A stretch of DNA of 64,000 bases from a virus: the IMG/VR virus record IMGVR_UViG_3300026484_000295, positions 108,405 through 172,404 of that record, one strand, 5' to 3'. The notes under the pieces were generated by a model. It saw only the letters and a program-made list of their open reading frames with translations, had not been told where the DNA came from and made no database searches. Numbering within the stretch: the stretch's first letter is position 1; every line of letters starts with the position of its first letter. Of the stretch, positions 8,079-38,835 are shown piece by piece. The position numbers and the translations under genes were made by a program.

Positions 8079-11000
8079 TTATCTATATTGTGCTTTACTT
8101 ATATCTCTTTGACGTATATTATCACTAGAATCAACATCACGTTTATATGATTTTTGAGCAATCTTATTCTGTTTTGTAAATTCTTTTGATGTATTATTAA
8201 GATGACCCAATTGTTGATTTTGAACCTGTAACATTTGCTCTAATAATTTTTCAACATTTAATAAGGTAGATGGTTCTGTTTTTTCATTATTTATTGTTGT
8301 TGAACTACTAGAATTATTATAGTCTTGTGTTGAAACATTATTCAATTTTGGACTTGTATTAATACCCGATGTACTAGTTCCAGATATAATACCGGATGTT
8401 GGTTTTGATGCTTCAGATGAATTAGACATTACTAATTGGTCGAATATAGATACTAATGATTCAGGTATTACCTTCTCATTGGTATGAACAATTCCTGCTG
8501 CGCCTTTCATACCAGTTAGAGTTTCTAATATAGGATCTGGAGCCGATGGTGTTTTCCCTCCTTCTGCAAATCCAAAGAAATTACCAACAGATGATGCAAC
8601 TGAAGAAATTGTATCTACAACCACACTAGATCCACCTCCACTAGATCCACCTCCACTAGATCCACCTCCACCTAGTAATCCACCTAGTGTACCACCAAGA
8701 TTATCCATTATATTACCGAAATCAAATGATCCTAAGGCTCCAGTTAAGCTTTCCCCCATACTTCCAGTAATATTTTTAAAGGTTTCTGTTATGCTACCAT
8801 CACCATCAAATGCATCCATTACAGAATCTAATGGACCGCCTTCTGCAGTAAATGATGAAAATGTTTTAGATAGATTGCTTGTTAAAGCACCAGTTACATT
8901 AGTTAAAGCATCACCAATACTAGTATCACCATTTAATACACCCGCAATATTTGTTGATACCAAATCTCCAGCACTACTTAAAGTCGTTGAAATGTCACCA
9001 ATCGTATTTGTTAAGGTTTTAGGTAAAATATTTGTTAATGAACTAGTTACATTAGTTAAAGCATCACCAATACTAGTATCACCATTTAATACACCCGCAA
9101 TATTTGTATTTAAAGATGTTCCTACATCTTTAATACTTGAACCAACATTTTGTACTATATTTTGAACCGAGGTAGGTAATAACGACGTTACATTCTGTGC
9201 TAAATTTTGTAATGATTGAGATGCAGTCCCACCAATATTTGTTAATGCTTCAGTTATTGTACTCTTTCCATTAAAAACATTAGTTATTCCATCCATAACA
9301 CTTTTTCCAATATCAACTTGCCCACCAAAAAATGATGTAGCCGTCGCACCTAAACCTGTGGCTAGAATACCTAATTTATCTTTAAGTATATTTTTAACAT
9401 CATCAAGAGTATTAACCATAGTATTTGCTTGTTTATCATCAATACCTTCTTTTGTTGTCTTTTTAACTTGTTCATCTGCTATTTGTTTTTGTTTTGATAT
9501 AATCTCTTTTTGATTATTACGTTCTTTTATTTCTGTTAATTTATTACTATTTTCAGGTTTATTACTTGGTATTATTTTATCATAAGCATTACTAACCGCA
9601 CCTTTAACAGAATCAACTGGAGCACTAATAAATCCTTTGATACTATCTGTAATTTTACTAAATACATTAGTCTCTGTTTTTTTAGATTCTTTTTTAGATA
9701 ATGTTTTATTATTTGAAGTTGAAAAATCTAATAATTTATAAAATGAATCAACTGTGTTTGCAGGTATAACAAATTCACCAGGACCATGGACTCCTGCAAT
9801 ACCATTAGGTTCTGCTGAACCGGTTGGATCTATTAATTGTGTTAATGCTTTGTTTACTGTATCACCAGTATACCCACCTTTAGCTTTAGCTTCTACTTTT
9901 ATGGTTTTTGCATCAGCCCCATTTTCAAGAGCTTTAATAAGTCTATCTAATTCATCCTCATACTTACCTTCTAACCCAGATTCAGATTTCATAGCTTTTA
10001 ATTCTTTTAATCCAATTTCACCAGAATTTAATCCTTCTTGAACTTTAGTTGTGTTTAAAGTGTTGTAGCCATAATCATCAACCCAATAACCTTTCTCTTC
10101 AAGATCAGCAGATGATTTTTCTTCTTCTGAATCTGGACCCATACCAGGAATCATACTAAGAAGCCAATTTATAGCATTACCTATTGGTTTAGCAACAACA
10201 TCATACAATCCATCAAATATTTTTTTACCTGCATCTACAATACCATTAAACATATTTTTAAACATTTCTAAGAGACTCATATCTGGATCATTAAAATAAT
10301 CTACCACAGCCTGAAAAGGAGCAGTTACCAAATCGATAAATCCACCGAAAATATTTTTAACTCCATCTACAATTCCTTGGAATGTAGACATAATATCAGT
10401 ACCAAATATACCATCAACATAATCAATTATAAATTTAAATGGAGCAGTTACTAAATCAGTAAATCCATTAAATAATGATATTACACCGTTTTTTACACCA
10501 TTAAATATCTGTTTTACGGCATCTATAAATGATAAGTCACTAGAAATCCATGCAGAAATAGCTAAAAATGGCGCTTTAACTATGTCAATAAATCCTCCTA
10601 AAATATTTGAAACAGCATTTACAATATTATTAAAATAACCTTTTATAGCATTTACAAATGAATTGAATACATTTGTAAAATTAGTACCAAAATATTCATC
10701 AACTAACCCAAAAATCCAATCAAATGGTTTTCGTACTAGATCAACAATACCATTTAAAGCGCCAGATATAGCATTTTTAACATTAGTAAAAATATCCTTT
10801 ACCATAGTATCAAATGATATTTCACCTTTGAAAAATGACGTTATTGATTTAAAAGGTGCAGTTATAAGTTCATAAAATGTACCAAAGATATTTTTAATTG
10901 CTGTAAATGAATTTCTGAAAGTTCCAAGCATATCTGTTCCAAAAATACTATCAACAAAACCCAAAACAGCTTTTAATGGAATTGTTATTATATCTAAAAA

Positions 11001-22784: not shown

Positions 22785-23747
22785 TTAAATTATACGAACG
22801 TTTATAATAGCTTTATATCGTTTATCTTCTAAGAAATTAAATCGAATATATGAATCATTCTCTTCAACAGAAATAGGATTTATTAAACTATTATTATCAA
22901 TATCTATAATTTCAACAGAGAAAATATTTTTAAATTTTTTAGGTATTTGTAAATATGTTTTAGGTTTATCAATTTTAATATGCCAAGTAGAATAATAATC
23001 CCCAATAGACCCACCATGTTTCCATATTGTTAATAAATCATTATTTTTAACTCTATATACCAACCCATCGATCGTTAAAATATTATTAATTATAGAAAAT
23101 TCATTATTTTTTAATAATATACCATTTAAATCCACAGATAAACTATTAATATTTGTTCCTTCAAGAATACTTTCAATATCAAATTGTGTTTGTCCAGATA
23201 AAGTATAAATTTCATTTTTTTTATTTATTTTAGGATTACTTATTCTATCTTTTGGATGAAATACAAATATATATAAATCAATTATATTTGATTCTTTTAA
23301 AATTATTTTTTTTGAATCAAAAGGATCTATAATAAATTTAACTTCATTCATATTTTGATTATATATTATAATATTATCAATAGTAAAATTAAAAATAGAG
23401 TCATCTAAAATAAATTCTATTTCATTCAGATCGTATTTGATAAAAATTTGAACATCAAAAGTTTTATCATATTCTGTTTGAACCCAATTATCTCCAAACC
23501 ATCTATATACCATATGATCATTTTGATTAAACCATGTTTGACCAATTATAGGATTTATAGGTTGATATCTACCATAAAAATTTTGAATAACCTTAATATA
23601 ATTTTCATTTAATTCATCGGCTATATCAATTATATTATGACCAAACAAATGCAATGAAAATTTATCATAGTCGATTGTATCAGGGTCTATCCATGTTATA
23701 TCTTTACCATTTATATCCGAAATTAATTGTGTGTTATTATTAGCCAT
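22785..23747 (-). CDS. Fibre-like structural protein
   Basis: 320 residues. Contains PIIGQTWFNQNDHMVYRWFG (about residues 63-82), the G-x-x-W-[YF]-N module common in phage fibre proteins, followed by at least two beta-rich domains ending in RYKAIINVRII. It is the third of three neighbouring genes with this module and is probably translated together with the next. The start has a clear AGAGGTAG site. It lies 17 bases beyond the stop of the Rep_3 gene, which suggests that at least some transcripts run through both. Confidence 0.65.
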   Translation of the reverse strand: MANNNTQLISDINGKDITWIDPDTIDYDKFSLHLFGHNIIDIADELNENYIKVIQNFYGRYQPINPIIGQTWFNQNDHMVYRWFGDNWVQTEYDKTFDVQIFIKYDLNEIEFILDDSIFNFTIDNIIIYNQNMNEVKFIIDPFDSKKIILKESNIIDLYIFVFHPKDRISNPKINKKNEIYTLSGQTQFDIESILEGTNINSLSVDLNGILLKNNEFSIINNILTIDGLVYRVKNNDLLTIWKHGGSIGDYYSTWHIKIDKPKTYLQIPKKFKNIFSVEIIDIDNNSLINPISVEENDSYIRFNFLEDKRYKAIINVRII

Positions 23748-23764
23748 ATACTACCTCTAACTTG

Positions 23765-25072
23765 CTATAAATATGAATATGCAATTTCAGAAATTATTTC
23801 ATTTGTTTCAATAATTTTGAACTTCCCACCCATATCTTTAAATTTATTTATCTTATTTATAGTTGATTCAATAGTTTCAGTAATATTAGATTTATTGATA
23901 GGCGAATATAACAAATATTGATTTGATATAGAAACGATTGGCTGCCCTTCAAAGTTTTCCATAATAAGAACTTTAGGTTTATTTGATTCCGGAACATCTA
24001 TATATGATATAATTTCTTTAAATAAATTATCAACAATTATCATATTCTCAATTTCTAAATTTTCAGATTTAAGATTACGTATAATTGTTTCAAGATATTT
24101 TTCTTCATTCTTAATTTCAGTTCCGAAAATCTTTGTTTGTTCTAATCTCTTTTTTGCTAAAGAACGATATTTCATTTCAATAGGAGATAATTCAATTGCA
24201 GGCAATTCTTCATTAGAAATAATCTTAGTGTCTAAATCATACGATACATTATCAGTATAATCAATAAGTATTGATTTTTGAGATTCAAGTTTAAATTTAA
24301 CAGCAACAACTTCAAGTTTTTTATCTATGCGGTCTTTGATAACCTCATACGTTACTTTAATATCAGATTTATCATTAACCTCTTGTACAGCTTTTTTTAA
24401 TATATCTCTATTAAAATTAGCCCATTTTTGTAAAGACGGTTTATTAATAATATCAACATTCAAAATAGCCTTTAATATATTTATCTCTATACGTTTTTCA
24501 TACGAACCAACATAATCTTTTAAAAGTTCATACAATAATTTTGAATATTTCGATTTTAATCCTACTTGGATTTGTAATGAGAATTTAGTATAATAATTTT
24601 TTACATTCAAAAACATTATCAATAATTCTGGCTCTATCCATACTTTAACTCTCTTGCTAGTAGTTTGTTTATCTTTCGACCATGCTATTTTTCTTAAAAA
24701 ATGAAATAAAATAGACTCTTGTGTTTTATTTTTATGTAAAACATTTGTTAAAACCTGTATTTTAGATATTTCATGTAAATTTTTTATTATCTCATTATAA
24801 TATCCATTTTTATATTTACCTAATACGTCAGATATTGATTGTAAGTTAATTTCAAAATGATTTAGAGATGCCCATTCATAAATCTCTTCTTCCGTTAATT
24901 CCTGTTGTAACATAATATCAGAAATAAAGAAAAACATAGTCCCAATTAAATCAACTTGAATAGGTGTTAAAACAGCAAATTCTTCTTTTATAAAATCTTT
25001 ATAATATAAAACTTGACATAACTCTGATGGTTTTCTTAATTCTAAGTTTTTTGTTAAATCTTTTTTACTCAT
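23765..25072 (-). CDS. Plasmid-type replication initiator, Rep_3 family (two winged helices)
   Basis: 435 residues. Residues about 33-160 and 162-262 match the two winged-helix domains of Rep_3 initiators (RepE of F, pi of R6K, RepA of many small plasmids). Clear landmarks are VWIEPELLIMF, LKSKYSKLLYELLKDYVG, and NFNRDILKKAVQEVNDKSDI followed by VTYEVIKD, the equivalents of the RepE LYESL and RRRFLQVCVNEIN segments. Such proteins bind iterons and load the host helicase, and also repress their own gene. Residues 263-435 are an extension I do not recognise. Four iterons lie immediately upstream and TGTAAAAT is present at 25103-25111. This is foreign to known T4-type replication, which uses recombination and R-loops; acquisition from a plasmid is likely. 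Confidence 0.85.
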   Translation of the reverse strand: MSKKDLTKNLELRKPSELCQVLYYKDFIKEEFAVLTPIQVDLIGTMFFFISDIMLQQELTEEEIYEWASLNHFEINLQSISDVLGKYKNGYYNEIIKNLHEISKIQVLTNVLHKNKTQESILFHFLRKIAWSKDKQTTSKRVKVWIEPELLIMFLNVKNYYTKFSLQIQVGLKSKYSKLLYELLKDYVGSYEKRIEINILKAILNVDIINKPSLQKWANFNRDILKKAVQEVNDKSDIKVTYEVIKDRIDKKLEVVAVKFKLESQKSILIDYTDNVSYDLDTKIISNEELPAIELSPIEMKYRSLAKKRLEQTKIFGTEIKNEEKYLETIIRNLKSENLEIENMIIVDNLFKEIISYIDVPESNKPKVLIMENFEGQPIVSISNQYLLYSPINKSNITETIESTINKINKFKDMGGKFKIIETNEIISEIAYSYL

Positions 25073-25102
25073 AGTTTCAACCTTATTTTTTTGTATTTAT
25101 TA

Positions 25103-25111
25103 GATTTTACA
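25103..25111 (-). promoter_or_regulatory. Probable early/middle promoter -10 of the Rep gene
   Basis: TGTAAAATC on the minus strand, 31 bp before the Rep_3 start, matching the TGTA(A/T)AAT motif before other replication genes. The first iteron lies 17 bp upstream of it, so Rep binding could repress the promoter. Confidence 0.5.
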
Positions 25112-25127
25112 ATCACAATTAAAATTA

Positions 25128-25141
25128 CACAATCTAATCAC
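25128..25141 (+). repeat. Iteron 1
   Basis: Core CACAATCTAATCAC, preceded by TTA and followed by AGTTT. It is the copy nearest the Rep start. Confidence 0.85.
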
Positions 25142-25217
25142 AGTTTCTTCCCATTTTTAATATTTTGTAAGTATATTTATCCATATTTATATAGCATTTT
25201 ATCTTTTTTTTAAATTA

Positions 25218-25231
25218 CACAATCTAATCAC
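25218..25231 (+). repeat. Iteron 2
   Basis: Same 14-bp core as iteron 1 and same flanks (TTA before, AGTTT after), 90 bp further on. Confidence 0.85.
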
Positions 25232-25271
25232 AGTTTTTTTCTTTTTATTCTTATCATGTATAATTATGGCA

Positions 25272-25362
25272 AAAAAAACTTAAAAAAAAAATCTTAGTTA
25301 AATTTAATATAAATTTTAGGCAATTTTCATAAGAAAAAAACTTAAAAAAAAAATCTTAGTTA
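25272..25362. repeat. 29-bp AT-rich direct repeat in the origin region
   Basis: Identical 29-bp copies at 25272-25300 and 25334-25362: seven A, CTT, ten A, then TCTTAGTTA. The period is 62 bp. A shorter inverted copy of the end (TAACTAAGA) lies at 25524-25532. These may be part of the DNA unwinding element. Confidence 0.8.
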
Positions 25363-25605
25363 TGGCATTTTTTTTAATTAATGGTTTTCAATATAATATT
25401 TTCTTATATCTTATTTTTGTATATTGTCAATAAAATATATATTTAAATAATATTTAACTAAAAAATATTTTTTAAGGTATATAAAAAACTAAAAATAAAT
25501 ACGTAAGTTAAAATTTAAAAATTTAACTAAGAATTATTTTTTGAGTTAAAAAATGGGTTTTTTGCCGCATTTTAACACTATAAAATAAAGGTACTTTTTA
25601 TGGTT

Positions 25606-25619
25606 CACAATCTAATCAC
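25606..25619 (+). repeat. Iteron 3
   Basis: Same 14-bp core, with a diverged right flank (G instead of AGTTT). Confidence 0.85.
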
Positions 25620-25627
25620 GAAAACTA

Positions 25628-25641
25628 CACAATCTAATCAC
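25628..25641 (+). repeat. Iteron 4
   Basis: Same 14-bp core with AGTTT after it. It starts 22 bp after iteron 3, two helical turns, the usual spacing for Rep_3 iterons on one DNA face. Confidence 0.85.
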
Positions 25642-25817
25642 AGTTTTTTTCGAGGGTCACTGGGAAACACTATATTTTCTCGTGCAAAAATAGGACTGTA
25701 CAAAATACAAATAGAATAAAGGATAGATATATAGCCTTCGGCATGAAATAGATTATTTGATCCAGACTATCTTTATTTGATATGATTTATTTTCATATAA
25801 TACCTATTAAAATTAAT

Positions 25818-25826
25818 TGTATAATA
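25818..25826 (+). promoter_or_regulatory. Probable early/middle promoter for gp47
   Basis: TGTATAATA (extended -10 form) 31 bp before the gp47 start. No clear -35 box is seen. Confidence 0.55.
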
Positions 25827-25857
25827 AAAAACAAATTATTAAATTTAAAGGTAAGTT

Positions 25858-26913
25858 ATGTCAAATAAAATTACAATGAGTACAGATTGGCATTTTGGTA
25901 AATCAAATGGGAGATTCGATAATATTATTTTAAATGGTATTATTGAACAATGTAATTATGCAAAGAATAATAATATCAAAGTTATGATTAATCTTGGCGA
26001 TACATTAGATGTAAAACAATCAATTACTACTAGTACTATGAATTATTTAGCTAAAGCATTTCAATTAATAAATGATACATTCGATAAAGTTTATGTATTA
26101 GTTGGTAATCATGATATGTCAAAGAAAACTTATAATAATGATGGGCATAATTTGCATATTTTTTCTGGTTATAATAATATTGAGGTTATCGATTCTCCAA
26201 AAATAATTTCGATATTTGATTCAGATTTTTATTTCATGCCTTATTTCCCAAATGATTATCTTAAAAATCATATTTTTGAGGAAGCTAGATTTATGTGTGC
26301 TCATATTGAAGTCCAAGGTTTTATGTTGAATCAATTTGTTAAAGCTGAAGATGGATTGAATATGCAAGCTATAACTAATATATATGATAATGTTTTTTTA
26401 GGTCATTTTCATAAGCGACAATCTAGAGGAAATGTATCTTATATTGGTAATATGTGTAGATTTTTTTATGGTGAAAATGATGAAGAACGTGGTTGGACTA
26501 TTCTAGATGTTGATACGAATAAGTATGAATTTATTGAATACCATCATCCGAAAATGTACAAATTTAAATTATCGACATTAATGAGTCTAGATGAAGATTT
26601 AAATAAAATATTTGAACCAGGCGACAATCTCAAACTAGTTATTGATAAACAATTAAAATATTCTGAATTAGAGGAATTTAAAACAAAACTAATTTTGGAT
26701 TATAAAATTAATGATTTAGTATTAGACGATCAATTTTATGCGTTTGATATTGATGAAATAGATGATGAAGATGAAACAGATGACAATGTTGCTGATTTAG
26801 ATCCTAGTTATATGGAATATCTATTAACAGAAATGACTAAGATTATTACAGATGATAACGCTGTAGAAGCTCTAGAATATCTTAGAGAAAAATCTAAAGA
26901 TTATCAGGAATAA
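25858..26913 (+). CDS. 47: Recombination endonuclease subunit gp47-like (Mre11/SbcD family)
   Basis: 351 residues, close to T4 gp47 (339). All metallophosphoesterase motifs are present: D10-x-H12, GD at 47-48, GNHD at 83-86, His149 in CAHIEVQG, and GHFH at 182-185. With gp46 it forms the Mre11-Rad50 type complex that resects DNA ends for recombination-dependent replication, the main late replication mode of T4. The C-terminal part has a highly acidic stretch (EIDDEDETDD). It is followed 72 bp later by gp46. A TGTATAAT promoter-like box and an AAAGG site precede it. Confidence 0.93.
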   Translation: MSNKITMSTDWHFGKSNGRFDNIILNGIIEQCNYAKNNNIKVMINLGDTLDVKQSITTSTMNYLAKAFQLINDTFDKVYVLVGNHDMSKKTYNNDGHNLHIFSGYNNIEVIDSPKIISIFDSDFYFMPYFPNDYLKNHIFEEARFMCAHIEVQGFMLNQFVKAEDGLNMQAITNIYDNVFLGHFHKRQSRGNVSYIGNMCRFFYGENDEERGWTILDVDTNKYEFIEYHHPKMYKFKLSTLMSLDEDLNKIFEPGDNLKLVIDKQLKYSELEEFKTKLILDYKINDLVLDDQFYAFDIDEIDDEDETDDNVADLDPSYMEYLLTEMTKIITDDNAVEALEYLREKSKDYQE

Positions 26914-36591: not shown

Positions 36592-38835
36592 ATGATGGCT
36601 CAACCTTTGATGATTCAATCAATAGTGACTGATAATAGAATAACTGCAAAATTTTCTGATAATGAATTGCCTAAATATGCAAGGCACGGTGAATTATATG
36701 TTGTCAATGGTGTATTATATATTTATGTTGATTTAGATAATACTGGTTCAGATATAGGTCAATGGTTTCCTATGACGTATGAAAAAGAAATTGTTATGTA
36801 TGTTGAAGTTGAAGAAAAGAATATATGGTCATTTCCTATATCATTTTATACTCATAATATACATGTTATTGTATATGATCAAAATGATAGAGTGTACACA
36901 TCCAATTTTAACTATACTATTGAACATGGTATAATGACTTTATCTTTTAATGAATCAATATCAGGGAAAGTCTATATTATTATGGATAAAGGTTTTGATT
37001 GGGTTGATTCGTCATTAATCGTTTCTGATAGAAAATTTGCTATAACTTCAGATGAAAATAATTTTTATTATATTGAAGTAGATACTGAAAATTTATCTAT
37101 TGATAAAAATGGTAAAATTATTATTAAAAACGATTTATCTGTAAATGGTAATTTAGATATTAATGGTGACATAAATATTACTGGTGATTTAAAAATAATG
37201 GGTGAAAATGTTGAAATAGAATCTTCAACATTAACAGTCTCAGATAATGTAATAACGTTAAATAACGGTTTTGTAGGTTCACCGTTTCAAAATACCGGTA
37301 TAGAAATCGATCGTGGAAGTTTGGGTAAATTAAATATTCTAACTTTTAATGAAACGATGGATTATGTTGAAATTCCAGTTATAGATAGTGATGATGTTAT
37401 TAATCAAGAAGAAGTAGCTACCAAGCCATTTGTAAATAATTCAATATCAGATGAAACTAATAGAGCAACAGCTGCTGAATCTACTTTACAAACAAATATA
37501 GATAATGAAGTTACTAGAGCTCAAGCTGCTGAAACTACATTACAAACAAATATAGATAATGAAGTAAACAGAGCAACAACTGCTGAATCTACTTTACAAA
37601 GTAATATTGATAATGAAGTTACTAGAGCTCAAGCTGCTGAAACTACATTACAAACAAATATAGATAATGAAGTAAACAGAGCAACAACTGCTGAAACTAC
37701 ATTACAAACAAATATAGATAATGAAGTAAACAGAGCAATTATAGTAGAAGGTGATATTAATAAATTACAAACTAACTCTAAATTAAATTTGGTTTCTGCT
37801 ATAAATGAAAATGTTGAAAGTATTAATGTTGAAAAAGAACGCATTGATTCAATCTTATCGGCTAGTGATGCTGACAAAGATTCATTTGCAGAGATAGTGT
37901 CATTGATAAATTCGGTTGATATTGAAAATGATGATGTTTTCGCTAATTATGTTTTGGTTAATGATGAACGTAGTGATAATATTGAACAGTCAATATCAGA
38001 TGAAACTAATAGAGCAACAACTGCTGAAACTACATTACAATCAAATATAGATAATGAAACTAATAGAGCTCAATTAGTGGAAGCTGATTTAAATAGTGGG
38101 ATTTCTACATTAACAACAAATATAGAAACAAATTTTCTCAATAAAACAACATCGGCTGAACAGATTATAAATCCTAATTTAAAATTAGATGGTTCAATAC
38201 TAACATGGTCCTTATCAACAGAATGGTTTTATTATTCTCTAAATGAAAATCTGACTACTATCGATATTATTAGTAGTACAAATATAAATGAATATATTTA
38301 TACTATGGATACTATTGAGACTATTAAATTTAATAAAAATGGTCAAATATGGTCGGTATTGTACGGTAATTTAGAAGAATATTTCTTAGGTATTAATAGT
38401 CAATCTAAAGATAGTTTATTACTAAATGGTTTAAATGAAACACAATTTGTACGAACCGATATAGACACTACTATGAATGAAAATTACCATATATTGAAAG
38501 ATTTAACCGTAGATGGTACACTTACAGCAGGAACAATAATTGAAACATCTTCTATTAAATATAAAGAAAATGTAAAATTGATAGAAACACCATTAGAAAT
38601 TGTATCTAAATTAGATGGAGTTCGATATACATGGAAAGATACAAAAAAAGATGATATTGGATTTATTGCTGAAGATGTTAATTTAGTACTTCCCGAATTA
38701 GTTCTAATTGATAATGGTGAAATTGAAGGAATGAATTATTCAAAAATAACTGCTGTTTTAGTTGAAGCTATAAAAGAACAACAAAAACAAATTATAGAAT
38801 TGATGAATGAGGTAAAAAAATTAAAAGGAGAATAA
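36592..38835 (+). CDS. Tail fibre protein with C-terminal S74 intramolecular chaperone
   Basis: 747 residues. N-terminal part (about 1-210) has a GELYVVNGVLYIYVD attachment-type module and a beta domain. DINGDINITGDLKIMG and LTVSDNVITLNNG follow, as in the fibre at 21014-22339. Residues 284-383 and about 467-500 are 18-residue repeats of type NRATTAETTLQTNIDNEV, a trimeric coiled-coil shaft. The C-terminal 95 residues are a Peptidase_S74 domain: S653 with K658 form the Ser-Lys dyad, then DGVRYTWKD, IGFIAEDVN and ITAVLVEAIKEQ. This domain folds the fibre trimer and then cuts itself off. A start at the second ATG (36595) is equally possible. Confidence 0.88.
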   Translation: MMAQPLMIQSIVTDNRITAKFSDNELPKYARHGELYVVNGVLYIYVDLDNTGSDIGQWFPMTYEKEIVMYVEVEEKNIWSFPISFYTHNIHVIVYDQNDRVYTSNFNYTIEHGIMTLSFNESISGKVYIIMDKGFDWVDSSLIVSDRKFAITSDENNFYYIEVDTENLSIDKNGKIIIKNDLSVNGNLDINGDINITGDLKIMGENVEIESSTLTVSDNVITLNNGFVGSPFQNTGIEIDRGSLGKLNILTFNETMDYVEIPVIDSDDVINQEEVATKPFVNNSISDETNRATAAESTLQTNIDNEVTRAQAAETTLQTNIDNEVNRATTAESTLQSNIDNEVTRAQAAETTLQTNIDNEVNRATTAETTLQTNIDNEVNRAIIVEGDINKLQTNSKLNLVSAINENVESINVEKERIDSILSASDADKDSFAEIVSLINSVDIENDDVFANYVLVNDERSDNIEQSISDETNRATTAETTLQSNIDNETNRAQLVEADLNSGISTLTTNIETNFLNKTTSAEQIINPNLKLDGSILTWSLSTEWFYYSLNENLTTIDIISSTNINEYIYTMDTIETIKFNKNGQIWSVLYGNLEEYFLGINSQSKDSLLLNGLNETQFVRTDIDTTMNENYHILKDLTVDGTLTAGTIIETSSIKYKENVKLIETPLEIVSKLDGVRYTWKDTKKDDIGFIAEDVNLVLPELVLIDNGEIEGMNYSKITAVLVEAIKEQQKQIIELMNEVKKLKGE
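37450..37736 (+). repeat. 54-bp tandem repeats in the fibre shaft
   Basis: About five copies of an 18-codon unit, with copies alternating so that some 108-bp double units are nearly identical at DNA level. A further partial block is at 37990-38070. Copy number change here would alter fibre length. Confidence 0.85.

Follow-up and report, generated by a model that had tools for sequence, protein, structure and literature searches.

Our analysis suggests that a group of uncultured T4-related giant phages, which carry a plasmid-type initiator together with matched repeats, start copying their DNA in a plasmid-like way. The locus described here lies in a window of 64,000 nucleotides (positions 108,405 to 172,404 of the viral record IMGVR_UViG_3300026484_000295), and we consider it likely to be a working Rep_3/iteron replication origin in a T4-type jumbo phage, made up of a RepE-like Rep protein and its iterons. 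What can be read from the DNA itself is the family and predicted fold of Rep, the repeats and the way they change together, how unstable the adjoining stretch is in two records, the selection acting on Rep, and the sites that the cassette occupies. The novelty is the Rep_3/iteron arrangement in T4-type jumbo phages; Rep_3 in phage-plasmids and viral Rep_3-like proteins are already known. Of the matches listed in our search of open PMC papers, none describes a Rep_3/iteron origin in lytic jumbo phages or in phages of the T4 type. One review presents T4 as the standard case of replication driven by R-loops and recombination (PMC3016281). A T4-type group with a plasmid-type initiator and matched iterons is a direct, testable case of initiator-driven starts.

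The initiator protein

The window encodes a Rep_3-type replication initiator of 435 aa on the minus strand (23765-25072, start ATG), with evidence from Pfam, PHROG, a predicted model and dN/dS. A reading of the sequence without database searches (hereafter the sequence-only reading) had seen both Rep_3 winged helices in this protein, and both Pfam domains score above their cut-offs. WH1 matches Rep3_N (PF01051; residues 63-185) with E 2.7e-11, and at 44.4 bits against a cut-off of 22.4 the profile search proposed there as a family check is significant. WH2 matches Rep3_C (PF21205; residues 200-261) with E 8.1e-9 and 36 bits against a cut-off of 21.1. The extra C-terminal part of about 165 aa (about residues 270-435) has no Pfam match. 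Rep also matches PHROG 4402, 'replication initiation protein' (3.5e-17), and R6K pi in the PDB is a sequence match (E 9.7e-6).

The AlphaFold model of Rep, built from eight homologues, has a middling mean pLDDT of 64.9. The structural comparison that had also been proposed returned a RepE/pi-like predicted fold within residues 5-271, with RepE54 at rank 1 (Z 19.8, rmsd 2.7 over 211 residues) and R6K pi at rank 43 (Z 16.7, rmsd 4.0 over 226 residues). Among viral models, one of the structural neighbours is an uncultured Caudovirales phage protein named for plasmid replication, and viral Rep_3-like proteins as such are therefore not new. Between the window and its nearest relative, Rep has dN 0.022 and dS 0.486 (dN/dS about 0.05, NG86); by this measure, purifying selection acts on Rep.

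Iterons and the A/T-rich gap

Upstream of Rep is a gap of 785 bp (25073-25857) with 80.6% A+T, in agreement with the gene-free, AT-rich stretch of about 780 bp described earlier. It forms a divergent gene junction, with Rep (-) on one side and gp47 (+) on the other. Four iterons lie within it: iteron 1 at 25128-25141, iteron 2 at 25218-25231, iteron 3 at 25606-25619 and iteron 4 at 25628-25641. As the sequence-only reading had it, these 14-mers share one orientation: all four are exact copies of CACAATCTAATCAC on the plus strand (Rep-sense GTGATTAGATTGTG), and the last two do start 22 bp apart, at 25606 and 25628. This distal pair is the only close one in the window lineage, where the remaining spacings range from about 90 to 390 bp. 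The 172,404-bp record contains no further exact copy of CACAATCTAATCAC, and with up to two mismatches the window still holds only four, against a chance mean of 0.78 and with 0 of 100 shuffles reaching four. At three mismatches the 14-mer is no longer specific (22 matches in the window's own record, G000, and 36 in its relative G001). A collection-wide scan for the 14-mer gave 107 stretches, and since among the 80 listed G001's own was the only one with more than one copy, lone 14-mers elsewhere look like chance.

In a nearest-neighbour stability scan of the 172-kb record, the 400-bp segment with the lowest stability was 25153-25552, between iteron 1 and the start of iteron 3. This candidate DNA unwinding element contains iteron 2. 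The corresponding 400 bp of G001 is likewise the least stable in its record. At 100 or 200 bp the minimum falls here in only one of G000 and G001, and in G000 the least stable 200 bp starts at 25342 and the least stable 100 bp of the record lies elsewhere. For the cassettes of two more distant records, G013 and G021, the same scan found no exceptional instability. A repeat search of the candidate element revealed an A/T-rich repeat in two identical plus-strand copies (25272-25300 and 25334-25362), with inverted versions at 25441-25476 and 25519-25547. The flank that carries iterons 3-4 and a further A/T-rich box (25602-25754) is conserved, with 4 differences in 153 positions relative to G001.

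Between iteron 1 and the Rep start lies an inverted half-iteron of eight exact bp (25099-25106, minus strand), a weak candidate for an autorepression operator. In 1000 Markov shuffles its exact stretch had p 0.015 and its match to the whole iteron p 0.062, values uncorrected for the eight genes tested; the segment that holds it (25090-25145) is identical in G001. DnaA boxes are common, yet not universal, among iteron-type origins, and exact boxes (TTATNCACA) occur twice in the window and not in the gap. Promoter predictions were at chance level, no terminators were predicted, and an Rfam scan was a dead end.

Genome context

The Rep locus sits at a strand switch of transcription. Its neighbour across the gap is the gp47/SbcD-like recombination nuclease (25858-26913, plus strand; phrog_100, 4.4e-57), and downstream of Rep is a gene without a PHROG match (22785-23747, minus strand) that is kept beside Rep or gp47 in G005 and G013. 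The earlier description of the genome as 'T4-like' is borne out for the core genes, namely Portal_T4, major head, tail tube, tail sheath and baseplate hub. Further T4-type genes of the window encode gp46/gp47-type SbcCD and a late sigma factor, and a clamp loader comes from the near relative G001; because of these genes we speak of a T4-type programme around Rep. The window phage is a distant member of the type, its capsid reaching at most 33.9% identity to named phages among the best 15 of 2500 records. PF01051 matched none of 11 chosen T4-type or jumbo phage records, T4 included (E up to 0.01), with SSU5, which we take to be a phage-plasmid with a Rep_3 initiator, as the positive control.

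We scanned 20 proteins against PHROGs, 3 from the window and 17 from G001 (including one fragment). The families matched included ligase, clamp loader, topoisomerase, late sigma factor, thymidylate kinase and a 'DNA helicase' family (phrog_1967), and none of the 20 proteins had a match named replicative helicase. DnaB_C was absent from G000, G001, G005, G012, G013 and G019 and matched in G021 only. Elsewhere in the window, 36592-38835 encodes a predicted 747-aa protein in which a short unit near TNRATTAESTLQSNID is repeated many times. The opening bases of G000 come back after 15 bases and those of G001 after 138, and the closing bases of G001 also occur 60 bases earlier; the contig ends of both records therefore lie in short repeats.

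Iterons among related Rep genes

The record that contains the window is 172,404 bp long (G000), and its relatives, labelled G and L, come from contigs of the viral collection. The nearest record found is G001 (289,880 bp), with a Rep of 96% identity and an identical set of four iterons. L158, whose Rep is 62% identical, keeps the 2+2 layout and the 22-bp pair of the window; its iteron is altered (Rep-sense GTGATTCGTTTGTG) and occurs in four identical copies. G005, with a Rep of 61% identity, carries three copies of GTGTAAGTCTTGTG and two variants, five iterons in all, with the 22-bp pair at the far end. The three lineages (window/G001, L158 and G005) share the iteron frame GTG-N6-TTGTG; the middle six bases differ between lineages and are uniform across copies in two of the three. 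Most occurrences of the frame fall inside the gap (4 of 6 in G000, 4 of 5 in G001 and 5 of 6 in G005), and the fetched 13.8 kb of L158 hold five, of which four are the iterons and the fifth is an overlapping match that lies between two iterons. Iteron copies that change together with Rep provide a natural data set for the co-evolution of initiators and origins.

Do more distant Rep genes keep such a pairing? We aligned eight distinct Rep genes (window/G000, L158, G005, both copies of G013, G019, L169 and G021), and all eight have both Rep_3 domains at E 0.001 or better. The comparison of relatives recommended by the sequence-only reading favours a Rep-iteron pair, with three to five direct repeats upstream of each of the eight genes and a different set in each. 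Repeats number three for G013 copy 1, four for G013 copy 2, four for G019 (a fifth is weak), three for L169 and four for G021, and in these five distant genes they recur every 22 or 28-32 bp, close to two or three turns of the helix. Since the consensus strings had been chosen from upstream regions, a wider repeat scan serves as the control; it covered whole records for G000, G001, G005, G013, G019 and G021 and the fetched loci for L158 and L169. Beyond the known copies it gave one more site in G001 at two mismatches and one more for G013 copy 2 at three.

An inverted iteron near the Rep start is clear in four of the eight genes (both of G013, L169 and G021; p 0.006 or less in 1000 Markov shuffles), and L158, G005 and G019 have no significant one there. 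The five distant cassettes also share, upstream of the iterons, an A/T-rich box close to CTCTTTAATATTCTTTAATATCTATTCTTTAGG, possibly an unwinding element (L162 6490-6530, L166 3650-3690, L169 3690-3725, L170 3690-3720 and, in reverse, L161 about 8085-8130).

Cassette positions

We located the gp47 locus in six records, and the Rep cassette adjoins gp47 in four of them (G000, G001, L158 and G005). In G013 the genes flanking the empty site are 194 bp apart and Rep is absent there; in G012 the sole PF01051 match is about 24 kb from gp47. Both of these records carry a Rep gene between the portal and tail-tube genes instead, and as they are near alike in this region we count them as one event. G013:C1 carries two Rep_3 genes (66652-67845 and 185755-186963) with different iteron sets. 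Compared with the window, G013 has 83% identity in the capsid and 67% in gp46 and about 31% in its Reps, and the cassette was therefore probably replaced rather than inherited with the core. On the evidence of these loci, Rep and its iterons act as a unit, a cassette that is replaced and moved across the phage group. Its persistence at the window site in four records, with Rep identities as low as about 61%, resembles prolonged vertical inheritance.

G021 and G019 also carry a cassette though only 3 and 8, respectively, of the 50 window ORFs compared match them, Rep included. PHROG scans of ten long proteins from each found a GroEL family in G021 and tail-fibre families in G019. A survey of gp23 loci yielded 17, of which 16 were searched (the 17th is G001); three have Rep, and the other 13 are uninformative fragments of 4-42 kb.

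The portal gene beside the first G013 Rep (L161 3461-6628) matches Intein_splicing in two stretches as well as HNH endonuclease families, and the ORF beside the second G013 Rep has no PHROG or Pfam match. By contig names, metagenome 3300026521 holds G001 and G021 and metagenome 3300035665 holds G013 and G019; their cassettes differ in iteron type.

The sequence-only reading had proposed an origin captured from a plasmid. In any recent sense this is unsupported: a tblastn search with Rep gave 0 matches at 1e-3 in 72,556 plasmid records. The same search against phages gave nothing at 1e-3. A scan of genome contigs with Rep gave four weak matches of 25-33% identity, and a relative's Rep gave two weak phage matches at E up to 1.

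GC skew

The cumulative GC skew of G000 reaches its minimum at the last base of iteron 4 (134045, window 25641). The minimum of G001 (120105) is about 175 bp past the iterons, and that of G005 (46578) is about 770 bp from the nearest iteron. Gene direction also switches at the skew minimum. We nevertheless rejected GC skew as proof of an origin, because G013 has its minimum (44422) at the same junction with no Rep there, and the closer of its two Rep genes is 22 kb away; skew therefore does not mark Rep as the origin. The global minimum of G021 coincides with the start of the contig, with a local low at 212314, 8 kb from Rep, and that of G019 coincides with the end of its contig.

Skew at four-fold sites, computed for ORFs of at least 300 nt, gave a mixed picture, and G005 had too few sites. 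Near the locus in G001, right-arm minus genes (n = 8) follow their arm (+0.270) and left-arm plus genes (n = 8) show almost no skew (-0.023); taken across the full record, the values are +0.085 for right minus (n = 30) and -0.074 for left plus genes (n = 37), with both intervals including zero. In G000, left-arm plus genes (n = 9) follow their arm (-0.223) and right-arm minus genes (n = 2) do not (-0.176). Within 95 kb in G013, left plus genes (n = 4) follow the arm and right minus genes (n = 3) do not, and over the whole record right minus genes give +0.047 (n = 74, interval including zero). The four-fold sites of G021 show no flip at Rep.

Discussion

How would such an origin work? Iteron plasmids serve as the analogy for Rep binding, opening and helicase direction (PMC4980987), and we infer binding, melting, initiation, timing and repression at the phage locus. 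For binding, the joint change of the iteron copies from lineage to lineage is indirect evidence. RepE-like Rep would bind the GTG-N6-TTGTG iterons, and the very A/T-rich stretch beside them would open with Rep assisting. A replicative helicase and the phage replisome would be loaded at the opened stretch, leading to early, origin-dependent replication; later replication would depend on recombination as in T4, using the adjacent gp46/gp47 genes. Rep would probably repress its own gene through the iterons and the inverted iteron or half-iteron near the start codon. The sequence-only reading suggested that iterons 1-2 may serve repression and iterons 3-4 initiation; L158 retains the 2+2 arrangement and G005 has five copies, and the inverted element, weak in the window and clear in four of the eight genes, looks more like an operator.

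We tentatively extend this picture to a broader one, which we regard as plausible but short of probable: several jumbo lineages may share an exchangeable origin cassette of Rep_3 and its own iterons that is swapped and moves site while its iteron specificity diversifies with it, each phage thereby starting replication of its own DNA alone. If this is true, matching between initiator and iterons would add a layer to phage identity and to incompatibility between phages, and T4-type phages would gain an initiator-driven origin where T4 shows only the unexplained iterons of oriE.

Could Rep be only a transcription regulator? The repeats would then be operators for divergent Rep and gp47 promoters, with no replication start. 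The locus is a divergent gene junction, the skew minimum remains at that junction where Rep is missing, and RepE of F is an autorepressor that acts through inverted repeats ahead of its ORF (PMC13028717). However, the Rep of G012 and G013 keeps its repeats at the portal/tail-tube site, far from gp47, and several phased repeats with an unusually unstable stretch (in G000 and G001) exceed the needs of an operator. We consider a purely regulatory role unlikely and a working origin the better reading.

Rather less probable still is that the cassette is a selfish or competitive element exchanged among phages, serving origin competition or incompatibility in co-infection and not an ordinary start. 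Cassettes do occur at different sites, two are found in one record, their iterons differ, and each of two metagenomes (3300026521 and 3300035665) contains two large records with different cassettes. There is also a precedent in a Vibrio phage satellite, which replicates during ICP1 infection by means of a RepA_N initiator and iterons (PMC7145576). Against this, a tyrosine integrase was found in 0 of 7 records, and the window-site cassette is kept in the four records with Reps as far as about 61% identity.

The sequence-only reading had also raised a phage-plasmid state, in which the phage would persist as a plasmid with Rep for its maintenance. Rep_3 is an initiator type of plasmids, PF01051 has a match in SSU5, and the window phage shares with phage-plasmids the trait of a plasmid-type replication gene in a phage genome. 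Yet AAA_31 (ParA), like the tyrosine integrase, was found in 0 of 7 records (which may be incomplete); the state is unsupported and we think it very improbable. We find it hardly credible that the locus is a plasmid origin in decay that no longer has a role, as we found no point in favour of this and it conflicts with the low dN relative to dS, the identical iterons of G001 and the coordinated change of those in L158; these measures would miss a role lost very recently.

Comparison with known systems

Within T4 itself, the closest likeness is to oriE, which has direct repeats (12-nt iterons) at a strand switch in a T4-type phage; according to the review, oriE, oriF and oriG all lie at transcription strand switches and the role of the oriE iterons is ill defined (PMC3016281). 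The phage Rep/iteron locus bears on these iterons. We dropped a relationship to T4 RepEB on grounds of size, as repEB is annotated at 138 nt against 1308 nt for Rep, too small for Rep_3.

The PLE satellite of ICP1 resembles the present locus in that a plasmid-type initiator and iterons act in phage infection (PMC7145576); it differs in its initiator family, RepA_N, and in being a satellite and not the phage itself. SSU5 likewise has a Rep_3 protein (a PF01051 match) in a phage genome. However, its record is 103 kb, whereas the window's phage has T4-type structural genes and gave no match to a ParA-type protein or tyrosine integrase here.

Among plasmids, the locus resembles the RepE-oriS system of F and the pi-gamma system of R6K. 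Shared with these are two winged helices in a RepE/pi-like predicted fold, direct repeats upstream of rep, an A/T-rich stretch and, in four of the eight phage genes, an inverted element near the rep start. The phage Rep differs in its extra C-terminal part of about 165 aa, and the gap in having no exact DnaA box. The window lineage also places two iterons near Rep and the 22-bp pair about 390 bp further out. Finally, unlike the origins of F and R6K, this arrangement occurs in phage records of up to 306 kb, in the window's group together with T4-type core genes.
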